Part shown: piece by piece, positions 1,182 to 50,322 of the stretch
How the letters are laid out: each line of letters begins with the position of its first letter
Position numbering within the stretch: the first letter of the stretch is position 1
NCBI GenBank assembly: GCA_017468085.1
Contig: JAFUJR010000015.1
Location: forward strand, 144,618 to 208,617
Direction: 5' to 3'
DNA: 64,000 nucleotides
Origin: Clostridia bacterium
GTDB taxonomy: Bacteria; Bacillota; Clostridia; Christensenellales; Borkfalkiaceae
The notes under the pieces: model-generated
Database searches by the model: none
The model's input: only the letters and a program-made list of their open reading frames with translations
Told to the model about the DNA's origin: nothing
Translations under genes and position numbers: made by a program

Positions 1182-2522
1182 TTATAGCGTTACCGCGCCG
1201 TCACTGCAAACTACTTCCGTGGCAGGTACTTCAGTATTCCAAGAAGCATCTTTTTCCATGGATTTCCACTTTTCTATTGTTCCATCAAAGAAAATAGTCG
1301 TTAAAGAGCTACAATTATAGAACGCTCTTCTTTCTATACTTGCTACGTTTTCACCAATCGTTACGCTTTTTAAGCTTGTACAATCTTTAAAAACTTCTAT
1401 CCCTAAATTTGTTAAACTTCCTCCAATAACTACACTCGTCAATCCAATACAATTTCTAAACGACCAGTATCCCAAGTTTATTACACTGTCGGGGATTACA
1501 AGCTCTGTTAAACTGCTACAATTTGTAAATGCGCCCATCTCAATATTTTTAACACTGTTTGGAATATCAATACTCATCAAGTTAACGCAACCATAGAACG
1601 CGTTTTCTCCAATTTGCGTTACGCCGCTGGGAATAGTGATATGCGTTAACGATTCGCAATAGCTAAACGCTTGATGACCGATAATTTTACATTTCGGGTT
1701 TATTGTAGTTGTTACAATATCGTCGGGAAATAAGTCAACTTCAACTAAATATAAGTAAGGATTAGTTTCATTTCCTAGATATTCACACTCGTTCTCAACC
1801 GTATAATTCAAATTATCGCAGAAATTAAAAGCCCAACTGCCAATATAGGTTACACTGTCAGGGATACGTATTTGCTCAAGATATTCGCAATACTGAAACG
1901 CCTTTTCGCCAATGCTGACAACTCCGTCGGGGAGTGTTATTATTCTCAAATTCTCGCACTCTTTAAAGGCGGATTCGCCAATGTGTGTTACGCTGTTGCC
2001 AATAACAACGTTAGTTAAAGCGTTACAGTTCCAAAATGCCGCTTTCCCAATACTGCTTACACCATTACCCATTACCACATCGGTTAAATGCGTGCATTTT
2101 GCAAACGCAAATTCACCAATCTCCGTTACGTTATCGGAAATTACAACTTTCGTTAATTTACTCTCGCCAAACGCTCCATAAGCAATAGCTTTAACCGGTA
2201 AATCGTTGCACGTATCAGGAACAACAAATTCTGATCCTTCATATGAATCCATGTTCACCAGCGAGTAGTAAGTTCCGTCTTCGCTTAATACATATTTTAC
2301 CCCGTCTACATATTCTTCCGTTTGCTGATTAGTATCCGAGTTATCAGACGAATTACCGTCTACAGTGTCCGATGCGTCATCTTCCGTGTCATTAGGTACG
2401 TTGTTGCTTATGTTGTTCGAAGCGTTGTTGCCTTTATTATCGTTATCGCACGCAATAAAGCCGAGACTGCTTGTTGTAGCGCACACCAAACACAGCAAGC
2501 TAACCAACAATTTCTTTTTCAT
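1182..2522 (-). CDS. BspA-like leucine-rich-repeat lipoprotein
   Basis: This 446-residue protein has a lipoprotein signal: basic MKKK, a hydrophobic stretch, and a lipobox ending GFIAC with the acylated Cys near residue 25. A low-complexity Asn/Asp/Ser linker follows, to about residue 70, then a short entry domain. About a dozen BspA-type (LRR_5) repeats of 23 residues follow, with the pattern SVTxIGxxAFxxCxxLTxIxIPD. Such proteins are anchored on the cell surface and bind host or microbial ligands; the ligand here is unknown. The start ATG has a good AAAGGAG site. It is expressed from a promoter plus 200-nt structured leader shared with the unlinked BspA-like gene at 21335. The gene is more AT-rich than its neighbours. 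Confidence 0.9.
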   Translation of the reverse strand: MKKKLLVSLLCLVCATTSSLGFIACDNDNKGNNASNNISNNVPNDTEDDASDTVDGNSSDNSDTNQQTEEYVDGVKYVLSEDGTYYSLVNMDSYEGSEFVVPDTCNDLPVKAIAYGAFGESKLTKVVISDNVTEIGEFAFAKCTHLTDVVMGNGVSSIGKAAFWNCNALTNVVIGNSVTHIGESAFKECENLRIITLPDGVVSIGEKAFQYCEYLEQIRIPDSVTYIGSWAFNFCDNLNYTVENECEYLGNETNPYLYLVEVDLFPDDIVTTTINPKCKIIGHQAFSYCESLTHITIPSGVTQIGENAFYGCVNLMSIDIPNSVKNIEMGAFTNCSSLTELVIPDSVINLGYWSFRNCIGLTSVVIGGSLTNLGIEVFKDCTSLKSVTIGENVASIERRAFYNCSSLTTIFFDGTIEKWKSMEKDASWNTEVPATEVVCSDGAVTL

Positions 2523-2558: not shown

Positions 2559-2589
2559 AAAAAAGTGCCGCCCGCAAAACGAACGACAC
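2559..2589 (-). terminator. Attenuator terminator in the BspA leader
   Basis: Read on the minus strand, GTGTCGTTCG and CGGGCGGCAC form ten pairs around TTTTG and are followed by TTTTTTATTTT. The hairpin stands between the promoter and the ribosome site of the lipoprotein gene, so transcription must read through it. Its 5' arm and loop (TCGTTTTGC, 2582-2574) can instead pair with GCAAAGCGA (2615-2607), a mutually exclusive antiterminator. Confidence 0.8.
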
Positions 2590-2729
2590 CTGTAAAAATG
2601 TCCTTCTCGCTTTGCTGCGACACAACATAAAAATAGTCTTTCACAAAGAGATTTTTATAACGCGAAAAAGATACACTCCTACCAAAGAAGTATACTCTAC
2701 GTGAAAAAAACTATTCTGTTATGTCGCAT
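2590..2729 (-). ncRNA. Candidate structured regulatory leader RNA, copy 1
   Basis: The leader of the minus-strand BspA-like gene folds into a long stem P1: GCGACATAACAG... (2727-2701) pairs with ...TGTTGTGTCGC (2644-2617). P1 encloses a hairpin P2 (GTATACTTCT / AGGAGTGTAT, 2694-2671) and a joining segment CTTTTTCGCGTTA. The second copy at 21146-21276 keeps the loop and joining sequences, while its stems differ by compensating changes. No known riboswitch class was recognised. Confidence 0.7.
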
Positions 2730-2733
2730 TTTT

Positions 2734-2762
2734 ATTCTACCACCTTTTCCCGCTTTTGTCAA
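2734..2762 (-). promoter_or_regulatory. Sigma-A-type promoter of BspA-like gene 1
   Basis: On the minus strand, TTGACA (2762-2757) and TAGAAT (2739-2734) are separated by exactly 17 nt. This places the transcription start near 2727, at the foot of the leader stem. Confidence 0.8.
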
Positions 2763-2989: not shown

Positions 2990-3811
2990 ATGGTGGTATA
3001 TATCGAGTACGCATTTTTGGAAAATTCGCTCTTCGATTTTGCCTTATTAAGTCTTTCGTTTTTAATTTGCAAAACTAAAATTACATGGTGGAAAACGTTG
3101 ATTTCCGCTTGCGTGGGCGGTGTGTTCGCCGTTATTTTTCCGCTTATTCTTCTGCCGCAGATTTTGCTTATTTTCCTCAAAATCGCCGTGGGATTTTTGC
3201 TTTGTTTTATCTCTTTTCCGCGTATTAAAAACAAAAAAGAGTGGGGCAGGTACGCGTTGAACTCTGGCGTGTTCTTTTTTCTCACCTTCTTGTACGGGGG
3301 TGCGCTCACCGCGCTGTTTTCCGCAATTTTTCCACAAAAAACGCCTATTTTTCTCGTCGCGCTCGGTTTTGCGCTGTTGTCTGCGCTCACTCTGCTGATC
3401 GTAAGAAAGATTTATCAAAAACGCACCGTTTTTCAAAGTATTTACGCGTGTGAAATCCTTTATCATGGGCAGATTTTCGCCCTTTCGGGGTATTTGGACA
3501 GCGGGAATTTGGCAAGCAAAAACGGCGTGCCCGTCTGCTTTCTTTCGCCCGATATTTTTTACGATATATTCGGGGAAGAAATTCTCTTTCAAGCAGAGGA
3601 TAAAAATAACGAAGGCGAGGGGCGGATACGCGATGAAATGGTGATTTTTACAATGTCGGGCGAGAGGCGGGTACAGCTTTTCCGCGCGCGGATAAAAGTG
3701 CAAATTCCGTCCGTGGAAAGCCGACAAATCGAGGTATATTTCACCCCGTCCAAGCATATGTTAAACCGAGAGTATCAAGTACTCTTAAACGCAGGAATTA
3801 TAAAGGGATAA
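2990..3811 (+). CDS. spoIIGA: Sigma-E processing peptidase SpoIIGA
   Basis: This 273-residue membrane protease (A36 family) is inserted in the sporulation septum and removes the pro-sequence of sigma-E in the mother cell. The N-terminal half (about residues 1-140) holds five hydrophobic segments, and the start [16 protein letters not shown] matches the usual SpoIIGA start. The C-terminal cytoplasmic half has the aspartic protease motif GYLDSGN, with catalytic Asp170. It is somewhat shorter than the Bacillus subtilis protein. Its substrate sigE follows six bases later, the standard pairing. A copy of the oriented 19-nt motif GGGGCAGGTACGCGTTGAA sits in frame at 3243-3261 and encodes part of WGRYALN, between membrane segments. 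Confidence 0.92.
3243..3261 (+). repeat. Oriented 19-nt motif, copy in spoIIGA
   Basis: An exact GGGGCAGGTACGCGTTGAA lies inside spoIIGA. Confidence 0.7.
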
Positions 3812-3816
3812 GCCGT

Positions 3817-4530
3817 ATGAAAGTCAAGGAAATTTTAAAGATTTTTTTACAAAAGCTGTGTTTGGACAAAGAGGTGGTGGATTACGTTTGCGGTGGCGGC
3901 GAAGCCCTGCCCTTGCCCCTTTCCCCCGAGGAAGAGAGCGAAATGCTTAAAAAACTGGGTGAGGAGCAGGAAAAGGAACAGGCGCGCGCCCTTTTGATTC
4001 AGCATAACCTGCGTTTGGTGGTGTATATCGCCCGCAAATTCGACAATACGGGCGTGGACAACGACGACCTCGTTTCCATCGGCACGATAGGGCTTATCAA
4101 AGCGATAAATTCTTTTAAGACGGACAAAAAAATCAAGCTCGCCACCTACGCCTCGCGCTGTATCGAAAACGAAATTTTGATGTATCTGCGCCGCACCGCA
4201 CGCCTTAAAAGCGAGGTTTCCTTTGACGAGCCGCTCAACACCGATTTTGAGGGAAACGAGCTGCTTTTATCCGACGTTTTGGGTATGTCTGCGGACACCG
4301 TGTACGGGGATATCGAGGCGAACGCGGAAAAAGAACAGCTGAAAGAAGCGTTGAAAAAGCTGTCGGAACGGGAACGGAAAATCATGTTTCTGCGGTTTGG
4401 ACTTGGCGGCGGCGAGGAAATGACCCAAAAGGACGTGGCGGATATGCTCGGCATTTCGCAAAGCTACATATCGAGATTGGAAAAGAAAATTATTCTTCGC
4501 CTCAAAAAAGAAATTGCCAAAATGGAATAA
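3817..4530 (+). CDS. sigE: RNA polymerase sporulation sigma factor SigE
   Basis: This 237-residue sigma-70 family protein is the mother-cell factor SigE. It begins with a hydrophobic and basic pro-segment (about residues 1-28) that the upstream SpoIIGA would cleave. Region 2 is clear ([35 protein letters not shown]), and region 4 carries the helix-turn-helix [23 protein letters not shown]. Length and order fit SigE of other clostridia. A terminator follows directly. In most Bacillota sigG comes next; here a zinc-ribbon membrane protein gene intervenes. Confidence 0.95.
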
Positions 4531-21110: not shown

Positions 21111-21139
21111 TTGACTAAAGTGCATAAAAGTGGTAAAAT
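21111..21139 (+). promoter_or_regulatory. Promoter of giant BspA-like gene
   Basis: TTGACT (21111-21116) and TAAAAT (21134-21139) are separated by 17 nt, the same geometry as the promoter of BspA-like gene 1. Confidence 0.75.
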
Positions 21140-21145
21140 AGAAGT

Positions 21146-21276
21146 GCGAACTCAATTAAATACGTGCAGGAGTATACTTATGGGGCATAAGTGTACCTTT
21201 TCGCTTACATACAAATCTTCTGTACGAACGATTTTAATTGAGTGTCGCAACTTTGGCGAACAAGTCACTTTTGTCG
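21146..21276 (+). ncRNA. Candidate structured regulatory leader RNA, copy 2
   Basis: P1 pairs GCGAACTCAATTAAATACGT (21146-21165) with the stretch ending TTAATTGAGTGTCGC (21228-21248). P2 pairs GTATACTTATG (21172-21182) with CATAAGTGTAC (21186-21196) around GGG. The joining segment CTTTTCGCTTACAT matches copy 1. Stem sequences differ from copy 1 but pairing is kept. Confidence 0.72.
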
Positions 21277-21311
21277 GTGTCGGCTTGTTTGCAAGTCGGC
21301 ACTTTTATTTT
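21277..21311 (+). terminator. Attenuator terminator in BspA leader 2
   Basis: GTGTCGGCTTG and CAAGTCGGCAC make eleven pairs around TTTG and run into TTTTATTTT, just before the ribosome site. CTTGTTTGC (21284-21292) can instead pair with GCGAACAAG (21256-21264) as antiterminator. Confidence 0.8.
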
Positions 21312-21334: not shown

Positions 21335-24300
21335 ATGAAAAGAAGAAAAATTTGGATATCAATTTTATTGGGGCTTTGCGCTTGCTTTATGAGTGCAACG
21401 TATTTTTCTGCGTGCGAAAATCTCACCCACACGCACACCTATACTTCACAAACGACAAATGCGACGTGCGGTGAAAAGGGTTTGATTACCTATACTTGCG
21501 ATTGCGGGGATACCTATACGGAAGAAATTCCTGCGACGGACGCGCACGTTTGGGATGAGGGCAAAAAAACTGTTTCGCCAAGTTGCACAGAGGAGGGAGA
21601 AACGATTTACACGTGCACGGTTTGTAAAACTGCGACGAAGACCGCTCCAATCGAAAAGCTGCCTCATGAATATGCCGCCGAGTGGAGCTATAACGAAACA
21701 CACCACTACCACGAGTGCAAATGCGGTGATAAGGCAGACGAAGCGGCGCACGTTCCGTCCGCACCCGCTACGGAAGAGACTGCGCAAACGTGTACGGTAT
21801 GCGGTTACGTAATTCAAGATAGATTGGGTATCATGTTTAATACGCTTACCGTAGCTGATAGAAAGGTTTACGGTAAGGTTGATAATGCCGTAACGGAATT
21901 TATTTTTAGCGACGAGATAACTGTGAACGGCAAGGCAAGTTACGTAGTGTCGGCGGATGAAGACGGTACGCAGACGTTAGAAAATACCATTTCGCTTGAA
22001 GTGGGGGATAACGTTGTATACGTAATTGAAAGCATTGATAATGAAATCACGAAAGTCTATACGGTAACGATTCGTCGCAGACCTATATACACTGTCGTGT
22101 TTGAAACAGACGGCGGTACGGCGGTGGAAAGCCAAACGGTAGAAGAAGACAGCCTTGCCACCGAGCCCGAAACGACGAAAACAGGCTATACCTTCTTGGC
22201 GTGGGATTACGATTTTTCTACCCCCATTACCCAAGATACGAAGATAACGGCAAGTTGGAAAGCCAATGAAGATACGAGCTATAAGGTAAATTATTATCTG
22301 CAAAACCTTGAAAACGATGAGTATACCTTAACGGAAACAGACGAACTCACGGGCACGACGGACACCACCGTTACAGCAGAAATTAAGACTTTCGAGCACT
22401 TTACATATAATGAAGGCGTTGGTACGGTCAGCGGCAACGTTGACAGCGACGGCGGTCAAGTACTGAGCGTCTATTATACGAGAAACACGTATACCTTGTC
22501 TGTCAATGATTCTTCCATAGCCTCTATTACAAGTGAGGGCACGTATAAATACGGCACGGAATTAACGTCGACGGTAACGAATTACCTTGGCTATGATTTC
22601 TTGGGCTGGTATAGCGGCGAAACGTTGATTTCAACGGATACGGTTTATACGTTTACCTTAGTGCAAAACGTGACGGCAAAAGTTGCGGTAAACGTAGGGA
22701 TGCAATATTTTACTTTCACGTCTACGACAACCACCTGTACAATAACAGGCATAACGGATAAAACGTTAACGGAAATTGTAATTCCCAATTGCGTGACGAG
22801 CATCGATAATTCTGCGTTTTCTAATTGTACCAAATTAAGAAGTGTGATTATTGGTAACAGCGTAACGAGTATCGGTAATTCTGCGTTCTATTGGTGCAGT
22901 AGCTTGAAAGAAATTGTAATTCCCGACAGCGTAACGAGTATCGGTAATTCTGCGTTCTATTGGTGCAGTAGCTTGAAAGAAATTGTAATTCCCGACAGCG
23001 TAACGAGTATTGGTAATTCTATGTTCTATGGTTGCAATAGATTGACGGAAATTGTAATTCCGGACAGCGTAACGAGTATTGGTAATTCTGCGTTTGAGAG
23101 TTGCAGTAAATTAACAAATGTAACCATTAGTAGCAGCGTAGCAAGCATTGGCAAGTCCGCGTTTGAGGATTGCGAGGGCTTGACGGAAATTGCAATTCCA
23201 AACAGTTTGACAAGTATTGGAAACGATGCATTTTATAATTGTAGCAACTTAACAGGAGTATACATCACAGATATAGAGGATTGGTGTAATATTGCGTTTG
23301 ATAATTTTTATTCAAATCCTCTGTGTTACGCAAATAATTTGTATTTGGATAAGGAGCTTGTAACGAAAATCGTGTTCCCCGATACTCTCTTAAGCATCGG
23401 TGATTATGCGTTTAGTGGTTGCAATAGTTTGTTGGAAGTCGTAATTCCCGAAAGTGTGAAGAGCATTGGTTCGTCTGCTTTCTATAATTGCAATAGCTTG
23501 GCAGACATCACGTTGCCGTTTGTCGGCGCAACGAAAGATGGAAAGAGCGATACGCACTTTGGTTATATCTTCGGGGCAAGCAGTTCTAGTAAAAACGATG
23601 ATTATGTACCTGCTTCTTTAAAATCGGTAACAGTTACGTCCGTAACGAGCATCGGTTCATATGCTTTCGCAGGTTGTAGTAGCTTGACGGGTATCGTTAT
23701 TCCCGACGACGTAACGAGTATTGGAAATTATGCGTTCTATGATTGCAGTAGTCTGACGGAAATTAAAATCCCCGACAGCGTAACGAGTATTGCAAGTTGG
23801 ACGTTCTATGGATGCAATAGCTTGAAGACTATTACTTTGCCTTTTGTAGGCGCAAGTATGTCGGCAAGTAATGGGTACGACCAAGTACTTGGATATATTT
23901 TCGGGTACGAAGTATCGGCAGATGCGATTGAAGGCACAACACTACAATACATAGATACTTCTAAGATTACGTATTATAGATATTATATTCCCATGTCGTT
24001 AAGGTCGATAACGATAACGGGTGGGGAGCAAATTAGTTGGGCATTTTATAATTGTACGTATTTAACGGAAATCGTGCTTCCCGACAGCGTAACGCAAATT
24101 GACTTTTACTCGTTCCTTAATTGTGATAGTTTGATAAATATCACTTTACCCTTTGTTGGTCACAAAAAAGATGGAAAAAATAATACGCATTTGGGTTACA
24201 TTTTTGGGGCGAGCAGCTATAATGAAAACTGGGATGATGTGCCCGCTTCTTTAAGATCCGTGACAATTACTTCTGCAACGAACATTGGCGATTATGCGTT

Positions 24301-25582
24301 CTCTGATTGTAGTAGTCTGACGGAAATCGTGCTTCCCGACGGCGTAACGAGTATTGGAAATTATGCGTTCTCTAGGTGCAGTGGCTTAACGGAAATTGTA
24401 ATTCCCGACAGCGTAACGAGTATCGGTGATGATGCTTTCAAGGTTTGCAGTAGTTTGACAGAAATCGTAATACCCGACAGCGTAAAGAGTATCGGTTCCT
24501 CTGCTTTCCAAGCTTGTAGTAGTCTGACGGAAATCGTAATACCCGGCAGCGTAAAGAGTATTGGTGATTCTGCGTTCTACGGTTGTAGTATTTTAACGGA
24601 TATTACAGTAAACGAAAATAATACGGCATATAAATCTGTGGGTGGGATATTATATAGTAAAGACGGGGAAAAGTTGATATGGTATCCGTGTGCAAAAACG
24701 GCAACAAAGTTTGCGATACCTGATAGCGTAACGAGCATTGGTTCTTCTGCGTTCTCTGGTTGTAGTAGCTTGACGGAAATCGTGCTTCCCGACAGCGTAA
24801 CGAGTATCGGTTGGTCTGCGTTCTCTGGTTGTAGTAGCTTGACGGAAATCGTGCTTCCCGACAGCGTAACGAGTATCGGCGAGCGAGCGTTCTATAACTG
24901 TAGTAGCTTGACGGAAATCGTGCTTCCCGACAGCGTAACGAGTATTGGCAATTATACGTTCTATAACTGCAGTAGTCTGACGGAAATCGTAATACCTGAG
25001 AGCGTAACGAGTATCGGTTGGTATGCGTTCTATAATTGCAGTAGTTTGACGGAAATCGTGCTTCCCGACAGCGTAACGAGCATTGGTTCTTCTGCGTTCT
25101 TTGATTGTAGTAGCTTGACGGAAATCGTAATACCCGACAGCGTAACGAGCATTGGTGATTCTGCGTTCTCTGGTTGTAGTAGCTTGACGGAAATCGTAAT
25201 ACCCGACAACATAACGAGTATTGACAATTATGCTTTCAAGAATTGCAGTGGTTTGACGGAAATCGTGCTTCCCGACAGCTTAACGAGTATTGGTAGTGAT
25301 GCTTTCTATAATTGCAGTAGTTTAACGGAAATCGTAATACCTGACAGCGTAACGAGTATCGGTGATGATGCTTTCTATAATTGCAGTAGTTTGACGATTT
25401 ATTGCGAAGCGGAAAATCAGCCCGAAGGTTGGGATAGCTATTGGAATCTTTCAAATAGACCCGTTTATTGGTACAGCGAAAATGAGCCTGCGCTCAACGT
25501 AGACGGCACGGCATACGAAGGGAATTATTGGAAGTATGATGAAAACGGCGAGATTGATATTTGGACGAAAGAAACGGTATAA
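21335..25582 (+). CDS. Giant BspA-like leucine-rich-repeat surface lipoprotein
   Basis: The 1415-residue protein starts with a lipoprotein signal ending in FSAC. Cys-containing modules follow to about residue 170 (HTHTYTSQTTNATCGEKG, TYTCDCGDTY, TCTVCGYV), then a beta-sandwich-like stretch, an InlB-type repeat (VVFETDGGTAVESQTV...GYTFLAWD) and a MucBP-like stretch. About 29 BspA-type LRR_5 repeats follow, interrupted by three non-repeat inserts, and a 50-residue C-terminal cap closes the protein. It is probably displayed on the cell surface for adhesion. ATG 21335 is used because GGAGG lies seven bases upstream; ATG 21329 is too close to it. From about 24.7 kb the repeats are almost identical at DNA level. 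Confidence 0.9.
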   Translation: MKRRKIWISILLGLCACFMSATYFSACENLTHTHTYTSQTTNATCGEKGLITYTCDCGDTYTEEIPATDAHVWDEGKKTVSPSCTEEGETIYTCTVCKTATKTAPIEKLPHEYAAEWSYNETHHYHECKCGDKADEAAHVPSAPATEETAQTCTVCGYVIQDRLGIMFNTLTVADRKVYGKVDNAVTEFIFSDEITVNGKASYVVSADEDGTQTLENTISLEVGDNVVYVIESIDNEITKVYTVTIRRRPIYTVVFETDGGTAVESQTVEEDSLATEPETTKTGYTFLAWDYDFSTPITQDTKITASWKANEDTSYKVNYYLQNLENDEYTLTETDELTGTTDTTVTAEIKTFEHFTYNEGVGTVSGNVDSDGGQVLSVYYTRNTYTLSVNDSSIASITSEGTYKYGTELTSTVTNYLGYDFLGWYSGETLISTDTVYTFTLVQNVTAKVAVNVGMQYFTFTSTTTTCTITGITDKTLTEIVIPNCVTSIDNSAFSNCTKLRSVIIGNSVTSIGNSAFYWCSSLKEIVIPDSVTSIGNSAFYWCSSLKEIVIPDSVTSIGNSMFYGCNRLTEIVIPDSVTSIGNSAFESCSKLTNVTISSSVASIGKSAFEDCEGLTEIAIPNSLTSIGNDAFYNCSNLTGVYITDIEDWCNIAFDNFYSNPLCYANNLYLDKELVTKIVFPDTLLSIGDYAFSGCNSLLEVVIPESVKSIGSSAFYNCNSLADITLPFVGATKDGKSDTHFGYIFGASSSSKNDDYVPASLKSVTVTSVTSIGSYAFAGCSSLTGIVIPDDVTSIGNYAFYDCSSLTEIKIPDSVTSIASWTFYGCNSLKTITLPFVGASMSASNGYDQVLGYIFGYEVSADAIEGTTLQYIDTSKITYYRYYIPMSLRSITITGGEQISWAFYNCTYLTEIVLPDSVTQIDFYSFLNCDSLINITLPFVGHKKDGKNNTHLGYIFGASSYNENWDDVPASLRSVTITSATNIGDYAFSDCSSLTEIVLPDGVTSIGNYAFSRCSGLTEIVIPDSVTSIGDDAFKVCSSLTEIVIPDSVKSIGSSAFQACSSLTEIVIPGSVKSIGDSAFYGCSILTDITVNENNTAYKSVGGILYSKDGEKLIWYPCAKTATKFAIPDSVTSIGSSAFSGCSSLTEIVLPDSVTSIGWSAFSGCSSLTEIVLPDSVTSIGERAFYNCSSLTEIVLPDSVTSIGNYTFYNCSSLTEIVIPESVTSIGWYAFYNCSSLTEIVLPDSVTSIGSSAFFDCSSLTEIVIPDSVTSIGDSAFSGCSSLTEIVIPDNITSIDNYAFKNCSGLTEIVLPDSLTSIGSDAFYNCSSLTEIVIPDSVTSIGDDAFYNCSSLTIYCEAENQPEGWDSYWNLSNRPVYWYSENEPALNVDGTAYEGNYWKYDENGEIDIWTKETV
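24715..25400 (+). repeat. Tandem 69-bp repeats within the BspA gene
   Basis: Ten consecutive 69-bp units encode the LRR pattern SVTSIGxxAFxxCSSLTEIVxPD with very few base differences outside the variable codons. The identity suggests recent duplication or gene conversion. Confidence 0.85.
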
Positions 25583-50233: not shown

Positions 50234-50322
50234 GCAGGAATATCGAAGCGGTCATAACGAGGCGGTCTTGAAAACCGTTTGGGGGCAACCCCACGGGGGT
50301 TCGAATCCCTCTTCCTGCGCCA
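50234..50322 (+). tRNA. tRNA-Ser (anticodon UGA)
   Basis: The acceptor stem GCAGGAA / TTCCTGC, discriminator G and encoded CCA are present. The anticodon loop CTTGAAA gives UGA, with stem GGCGGT / ACCGTT. A long variable arm (TTGGGGGCAACCCCAC) and the T arm GGGGGTTCGAATCCCTC mark a class II serine tRNA. Confidence 0.95.

Follow-up and report, generated by a model that had tools for sequence, protein, structure and literature searches.

Two gene leaders in the 64,000-nt stretch of Clostridia DNA analysed here (the window) belong to a larger family of structured RNAs. Judged from its sequence, the element is best read as a cis-acting, riboswitch-like attenuator of transcription, a prediction to which we give a probability of about two in three. 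The first-pass annotation of the window had described the two leaders as homologous and as laid out like a riboswitch; that description holds, and it understates the extent of the family.

Two leaders and their relatives

Copy 1 lies on the minus strand ahead of gene 1 (1182..2522, ATG at 2522), which encodes a BspA-type LRR_5 lipoprotein of 446 aa. Its promoter (2734..2762) has a -35 box TTGACA (2762-2757) and a -10 box TAGAAT (2739-2734) with a 17-nt spacer and a TG preceding the -10, and its RNA element (2561..2728) spans model positions 1-168. Reading 5′ to 3′ on the minus strand, the element comprises the P1 5′ arm (2718..2727), the P1b 5′ arm region (2700..2717), which differs from member to member, the P2 hairpin with its GGUA loop (2671..2695), the bulge J, CUUUUUCGC (2662..2670), the P1b 3′ arm region (2629..2646), the P1 3′ arm (2617..2626), the antiterminator 5′ arm (2599..2615) with strand X, GCGAGAAGG, the complement of J (2602..2610), and the intrinsic terminator stem (2563..2591), whose 5′ arm is overlapped by the antiterminator 3′ arm (2574..2588). 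Positions 2990-4530 of the window hold a spoIIGA-like gene and a sigma-70-family gene, divergent from copy 1. Copy 2, on the plus strand, has its promoter at 21111..21139 (-35 TTGACT from 21111, -10 TAAAAT from 21134), its RNA element at 21145..21306, P2 at 21172..21196, J at 21197..21204, X at 21255..21264 and the terminator stem at 21277..21302; it precedes gene 2 (21335..25582, ATG at 21335 after GGAGG), which encodes an LRR_5 lipoprotein of 1415 aa with List_Bact repeats. The RNAfold minimum is the antiterminator form for copy 1 and the terminator form for copy 2.

The homology of the two leaders is borne out by 78% mean column identity when they are aligned, and by a match of 68% over 240 nt (E 1.7e-10) in a BLAST comparison among the five copies of the genome, a match that starts just before the -35 box and ends just past the terminator. 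The -35/-10 promoters and the P2 and terminator stems lie where they had been placed in both copies, and the alternative pairing proposed for copy 1 (GCAAAGCGA/TCGTTTTGC) is present. Two details call for revision. The long stem P1 does pair, but not as a single stem: P1 and P1b are separated by an internal loop. The joining segments likewise stand, but AAATCT is not a fixed joint: the fold predicted for copy 2 has its TCT paired, and several relatives have no AAATCT.

Likeness between the leaders goes beyond chance, with three more copies in the window's own genome, recovered by BLAST from copy 1 and again from copy 2, and with covarying relatives elsewhere. This makes five clear copies in that genome, where the next four model matches stand at E 0.24 or worse. 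One of the three (C53) precedes a gene for a TIR-domain protein, and the other two (C30 and C13) precede genes for lipoprotein-like proteins with List_Bact repeats. The five resemble one another over a block that starts a little upstream of the -35 box and for the most part ends a little downstream of the terminator; for C30 and copy 2 the likeness runs on into the gene start.

Among relatives, BLAST at E <= 0.01 matched 25 of 61 genomes, the window's own included. Two covariance models were built, R1 from 29 sequences and R2 from 71, the latter being the sequences at E <= 1e-12 from 71 sources; at E <= 0.01 there were 95 matches from 79 sources, a list from which reverse-strand matches, one duplicate locus and divergent subtypes were left out. 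R1 matched 104 of 201 genomes of the family (E <= 0.01, a single genome having as many as 8 matches) and 77 of 396 of the order (E <= 0.001), tallies that include weak or false places, since reverse-strand readings of true copies score better than these cut-offs, reaching E 3.6e-5 with R1 (and 1.4e-4 with R2). The model searches also missed members, as few first-look candidates were scored per genome and under stricter filters. R2 matched 65 of 391 genomes of the class (E <= 1e-4), and in a phylum sample 1 of 299, which was the window's own. Three of 18 named relatives were positive with R2: a MAG from roe deer caecum and two that, from their names, we take to come from a mouse gut catalogue and, for a Ruminococcaceae MAG, from rumen. 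The Obg protein of the window's genome is closest, among named relatives, to that of a Clostridia MAG from roe deer caecum, at 98% identity. In these samples the RNA family is confined to the class Clostridia and is patchy inside it.

Stems, conserved core and competing helices

The hairpin domain is made up of P1, an internal loop, P1b, P2 with a GGUA or GGCA loop, and the one-sided bulge J. In the 71-sequence alignment, which was fitted to a model holding P1, P2 and the terminator and is biased toward those stems, both sides have changed in 11 of 15 pairs of P1, 9 of 10 of P2 and 9 of 10 of the terminator. Taken together, these stems have 29 double-change pairs out of 35, against 17.2 in shuffled controls, and 284 double-change cells against 71.4; 91.2% of cells pair against 80.5% when shuffled, falling to 32.9-56.1% when the partner is slid by 1-3 columns. 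A MAFFT alignment of the 29 sequences gave 90.5% paired against 85.2% shuffled, with 16 double-change pairs against 8.2. Because P1b is too variable to be aligned, its 5′ arms were each paired with the 3′ arm of the same element and with those of all others: the own partner averaged -13.6 kcal/mol against -4.6 for swapped ones, was better in 71 of 71 and was best or tied-best in 56. The P2 loop reads GG[UC]A in 61 of the 71 sequences (GGUA 52, GGCA 9; GGUG in 5 and none of these in 5), and J is conserved and unpaired, usually as CUUUUUCGC or CUUAUUCGC. Covariation thus exceeds both shuffled and slid backgrounds, and the element appears to contain a conserved folded domain of the kind that riboswitches have. 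An exchange of strands between P1 and the terminator arms, whose sequences look alike, was also considered and found no support (own -7.2 against -7.0 swapped, and -8.9 against -8.5).

The antiterminator logic proposed for the two leaders draws support across the family from own-partner energies and from double-change cells. The own antiterminator partner averaged -16.4 kcal/mol against a swapped mean of -12.7 and was better in 63 of 71 sequences, being best or tied-best in just 4; its columns hold 18 double-change cells against 9.7 shuffled, with no excess of double-change pairs (5 against 4.7). By calculated energies the antiterminator and terminator are near balance, lying within 4 kcal/mol of one another in 53 of 71 sequences, with the antiterminator the stabler in 32.

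A further pairing, additional to those of the first-pass annotation, involves strand X, just 3′ of P1, which is complementary to bulge J. With J alone, own partners averaged -9.55 against -8.79 swapped (z -4.8, where one of six offset control windows reached z -2.2) and beat the swapped mean in 42 of 71 sequences; the J:X columns hold 16 double-change cells against 7.3 (2 of 500 shuffles as high), while double-change pairs, at 5 against 3.7, were matched by 97 of 500 shuffles, and pair types behaved likewise. In divergent members the pairing extends into the P2 3′ strand, to as many as about 14 pairs. A wider test therefore set the P2 3′ strand plus J against the 22 nt following P1, with 35 of 199 elements lost to segmentation. 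Own partners then averaged -13.15 against -9.11 over 164 elements, -12.80 against -9.73 at order level (n=104) and -13.76 against -10.14 at class level (n=60), none of 20000 permutations being as low in any of the three. Kinship between sequences inflates such statistics, and the set was accordingly thinned by identity. Below 65% identity (n=28) the means were -12.13 and -8.49, with 27 of 28 better and 0 of 20000 permutations as low, and two control segments gave z -1.0 and -1.4; below 60% (n=10), 37 of 20000 permutations were as low. Among 20 units of tandem loci, the own X pairing was the better one in 11, tied in 6 and was the worse in 3 (-12.5 on average against -10.5). Among the five copies of the window's genome, the own X partner was best in none, and for copy 2 it was the weakest of the five (-11.2; others up to -20.3). 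Pairing of X is supported across the family by these comparisons, while the window's own genome does not separate pairing in cis from pairing in trans. A nested, pseudoknot-free J:X fold was rejected at a cost of 8.7-24.4 kcal/mol; for J and X to pair, the RNA would have to form a true pseudoknot, bend at the internal loop or act in trans. Covariation and pairing energies point to mutually exclusive helices of the riboswitch type, against which the J-only, column and own-genome results run contrary.

The promoter-RNA-terminator cassette and its genes

A scan for sigma-70-type promoters, allowing at most 3 mismatches in 12, placed one ahead of 70/71, 57/68 and 53/60 elements in the three sets, against 25 of 450 control windows. 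In 161 of the 199 elements (66, 50 and 45 per set), model position 1 follows the end of the -10 box at a distance of exactly 5 nt. Given this fixed distance and the usual spacing to the start site, transcription should start at the beginning of P1 or close to it. Riboswitches do not usually stand at a set distance from their promoter. As far as sequence can tell, promoter, RNA and terminator are one cassette, sometimes in tandem, with the promoter and terminator of its own that a stand-alone sRNA gene would have. In three arrays (L099, L100 and L103) a promoter-like sequence was found by eye for each of seven units. In these arrays and in L185-L187 a divergent subtype, TACCACATTA...GTGGTAACTATCG, stands upstream of the ordinary one, with promoter and terminator separate for each unit, again by eye. 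Elsewhere a Large SRP RNA (L112:1829-2093) lies about 170 nt away from a divergent-subtype element.

The cassette stands close ahead of genes. At order level, an ORF lies within 300 nt of 122 among 139 elements, at a median gap of 28 nt, and for 101 a start codon stands on the same strand no more than 50 nt past the element end, distances that suggest a 5′ leader in sense position. For the other 17, there is no ORF inside 300 nt, and at least 6 of these sit before another unit or at a contig end. That the target genes encode BspA-like lipoproteins, as the two leaders had suggested, is right for many and too narrow as a rule. A loose lipobox pattern marked 66 of the 139 downstream proteins as lipoprotein-like, and a Pfam scan of 109 of the 122 ORFs (13 duplicates or near-duplicates omitted) found LRR_5 in 29 of 61 and 15 of 48 proteins. 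LRR_5 matches occur on nine contigs of the window's genome, so the element marks a subset of such genes there. Other target domains are List_Bact repeats, collagen-like repeats, zinc ribbons, TIR, SPFH, YpsA/SLOG and T5orf172; homologues thus stand before many other genes, and no common pathway that would name a ligand emerged among them.

Some of the rarer targets recur. TIR-domain proteins follow elements at L013:1890-3851 (G000:C53) and at L201:1-1722, and the C53 protein has a weak match to Thoeris ThcB4, far under the cut-off. The element of L236 precedes a YpsA/SLOG protein, the sole YpsA match among the scanned L184, L217, L229 and L236; the proteins of L184, L217, L229 and L113 are similar by eye, and the first three of these have no Pfam match. 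Elements at L204, L207-L211, L103 and L111 precede proteins starting with double zinc ribbons, identified by Pfam in L103 and L204 (the latter also with LRR_5) and by eye in the others.

Interpretation, alternatives and significance

The element bears on known classes as follows. No Rfam 15 gathering match fell on it in the window, in 20 order-level loci or in a further 17 class-level and 3 order-level loci, in keeping with the earlier failure to recognise a known riboswitch class. The only gathering match in the whole window is a tRNA gene (50234-50319), and a class-level element in L248 has the Rfam Gut-1 RNA (L248:1196-1272) some 230 nt upstream of it. Sub-threshold names (SQ2397, with 27 bits where 100 are required; L20 leader; Spd-sr07; snoR136) were rejected because they vary from copy to copy and fall far short of the cut-offs. 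With terminator/antiterminator riboswitches the element shares a 5′ leader position, a covarying folded domain, conserved unpaired bases and an antiterminator that excludes an intrinsic terminator placed immediately ahead of the ribosome site; it differs from them in the fixed promoter distance, by which the RNA should start in P1, in tandem units with their own promoters and in having no Rfam match. The c-di-GMP riboswitches, present in several copies per Clostridia genome ahead of varied targets including surface proteins, are similar in copy number and in mixed targets; they differ from the element, which has no Rfam gathering match at the loci scanned.

Literature searches over titles and abstract openings, and over main-text portions of motif-discovery papers (PMC8040213, PMC8632094, PMC11109978, PMC6429828), found no such RNA. 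With no match in Rfam and none in these searches, the best reading is that the element is an uncatalogued member of the riboswitch/attenuator kind, absent from Rfam 15. The SLH motif comes nearest to it, compared here by its description in the portions covered of PMC6429828: an orphan candidate riboswitch found in Clostridia and in other bacteria before surface-protein genes, with 80 examples reported from Synergistaceae, Clostridia, Negativicutes and metagenomes, about 60% of them before S-layer homology proteins. The element could be among the 3161 structured-RNA candidates from the human microbiome in PMC8040213, a comparison that extends to its main text, from which the words 'lipoprotein' and 'leucine-rich' are absent.

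How such an attenuator might work can be sketched. Polymerase would start on the first paired base of P1 or close to it, and the 5′ end of the transcript would thus be locked into the long hairpin of P1, internal loop, P1b, P2 and J. If X then paired with the terminator 5′ arm, the antiterminator would form and polymerase would read on; if X paired with J and the P2 3′ strand, the terminator would be left free to form. The choice between these partners would fall to a signal recognised at the P2/J core, most likely a small molecule, and if holding P2/J shut frees X, the signal would probably turn the gene on. It is possible, though we do not favour it, that the attenuator works in this way with an RNA-binding protein or another RNA at P2/J setting the pairing of X. 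P2 and its loop are conserved in sequence besides structure, and the targets are functionally mixed, like a protein-controlled regulon; moreover, in the window's genome the pairing of X with the P2 3′ strand and J of a different copy is at least as good as with its own. The own pairing preferred in tandem loci leans the other way, to action in cis.

A doubtful alternative is that the cassette is a stand-alone sRNA gene, its terminated product of about 165 nt acting in trans and read-through being incidental. The fixed promoter distance, the 5′ end in a stem and the intrinsic terminator are the anatomy of such a gene, as are the promoters of all seven array units, and the 17 order-level matches with no nearby ORF are in line with it. 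Several of those 17 are accounted for by another unit or a contig end, however, most elements stop just short of a same-strand start codon, and an antiterminator pairing preserved despite change would be useless to a plain sRNA. Their position before start codons also speaks against a dispersed repeat or mobile cassette with no regulatory role, which we consider very improbable even though homology among the own copies covers the block from promoter to terminator and mostly ends there, and a genome may hold up to 8 matches at E <= 0.01. Compensatory changes in three stems, the preference of P1b for its own partner and covariation that spans genera are not what such a repeat would carry, and two exact patterns searched in viral contigs, as a check on carriage by phages, gave no match, which counts against it as well. 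Least credible of all is ribosome-mediated attenuation through a leader peptide: a closed ATG ORF of at least 6 codons is found in 24 of 71 leaders, but 20 lack an ATG altogether, 7 of 71 combine an ORF with a Shine-Dalgarno-like site, and no conserved upstream ORF was seen among them.

The first-pass proposal of a riboswitch-like attenuator is partly supported, in its structure and in competing pairings as read from sequence. None of the three outcomes named beforehand as fatal to it came about: relatives precede many other genes, the stems covary beyond the controls, and Rfam gave no gathering match on an element in the loci scanned. A broader and quite tentative picture is that of a promoter-locked switch cassette, widespread in Clostridia, that would sense a signal through P2/J and co-ordinate a surface-lipoprotein regulon, the P2 3′ strand being handed to the expression platform, with tandem chaining and possibly trans action of terminated leaders. 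The occasional TIR and YpsA/SLOG targets suggest that the signal may be a nucleotide messenger, and trans action, if true, would let own and foreign X pair equally well, as in the window's genome. If the attenuator reading is right, the family would be a class of gene-control RNA outside Rfam 15, of which a genome may have several copies, and a control element common to a set of surface LRR lipoproteins and their companions. The fixed promoter-RNA spacing offers a testable mechanistic clue, and the alignment and covariance model provide the means to hunt the signal.
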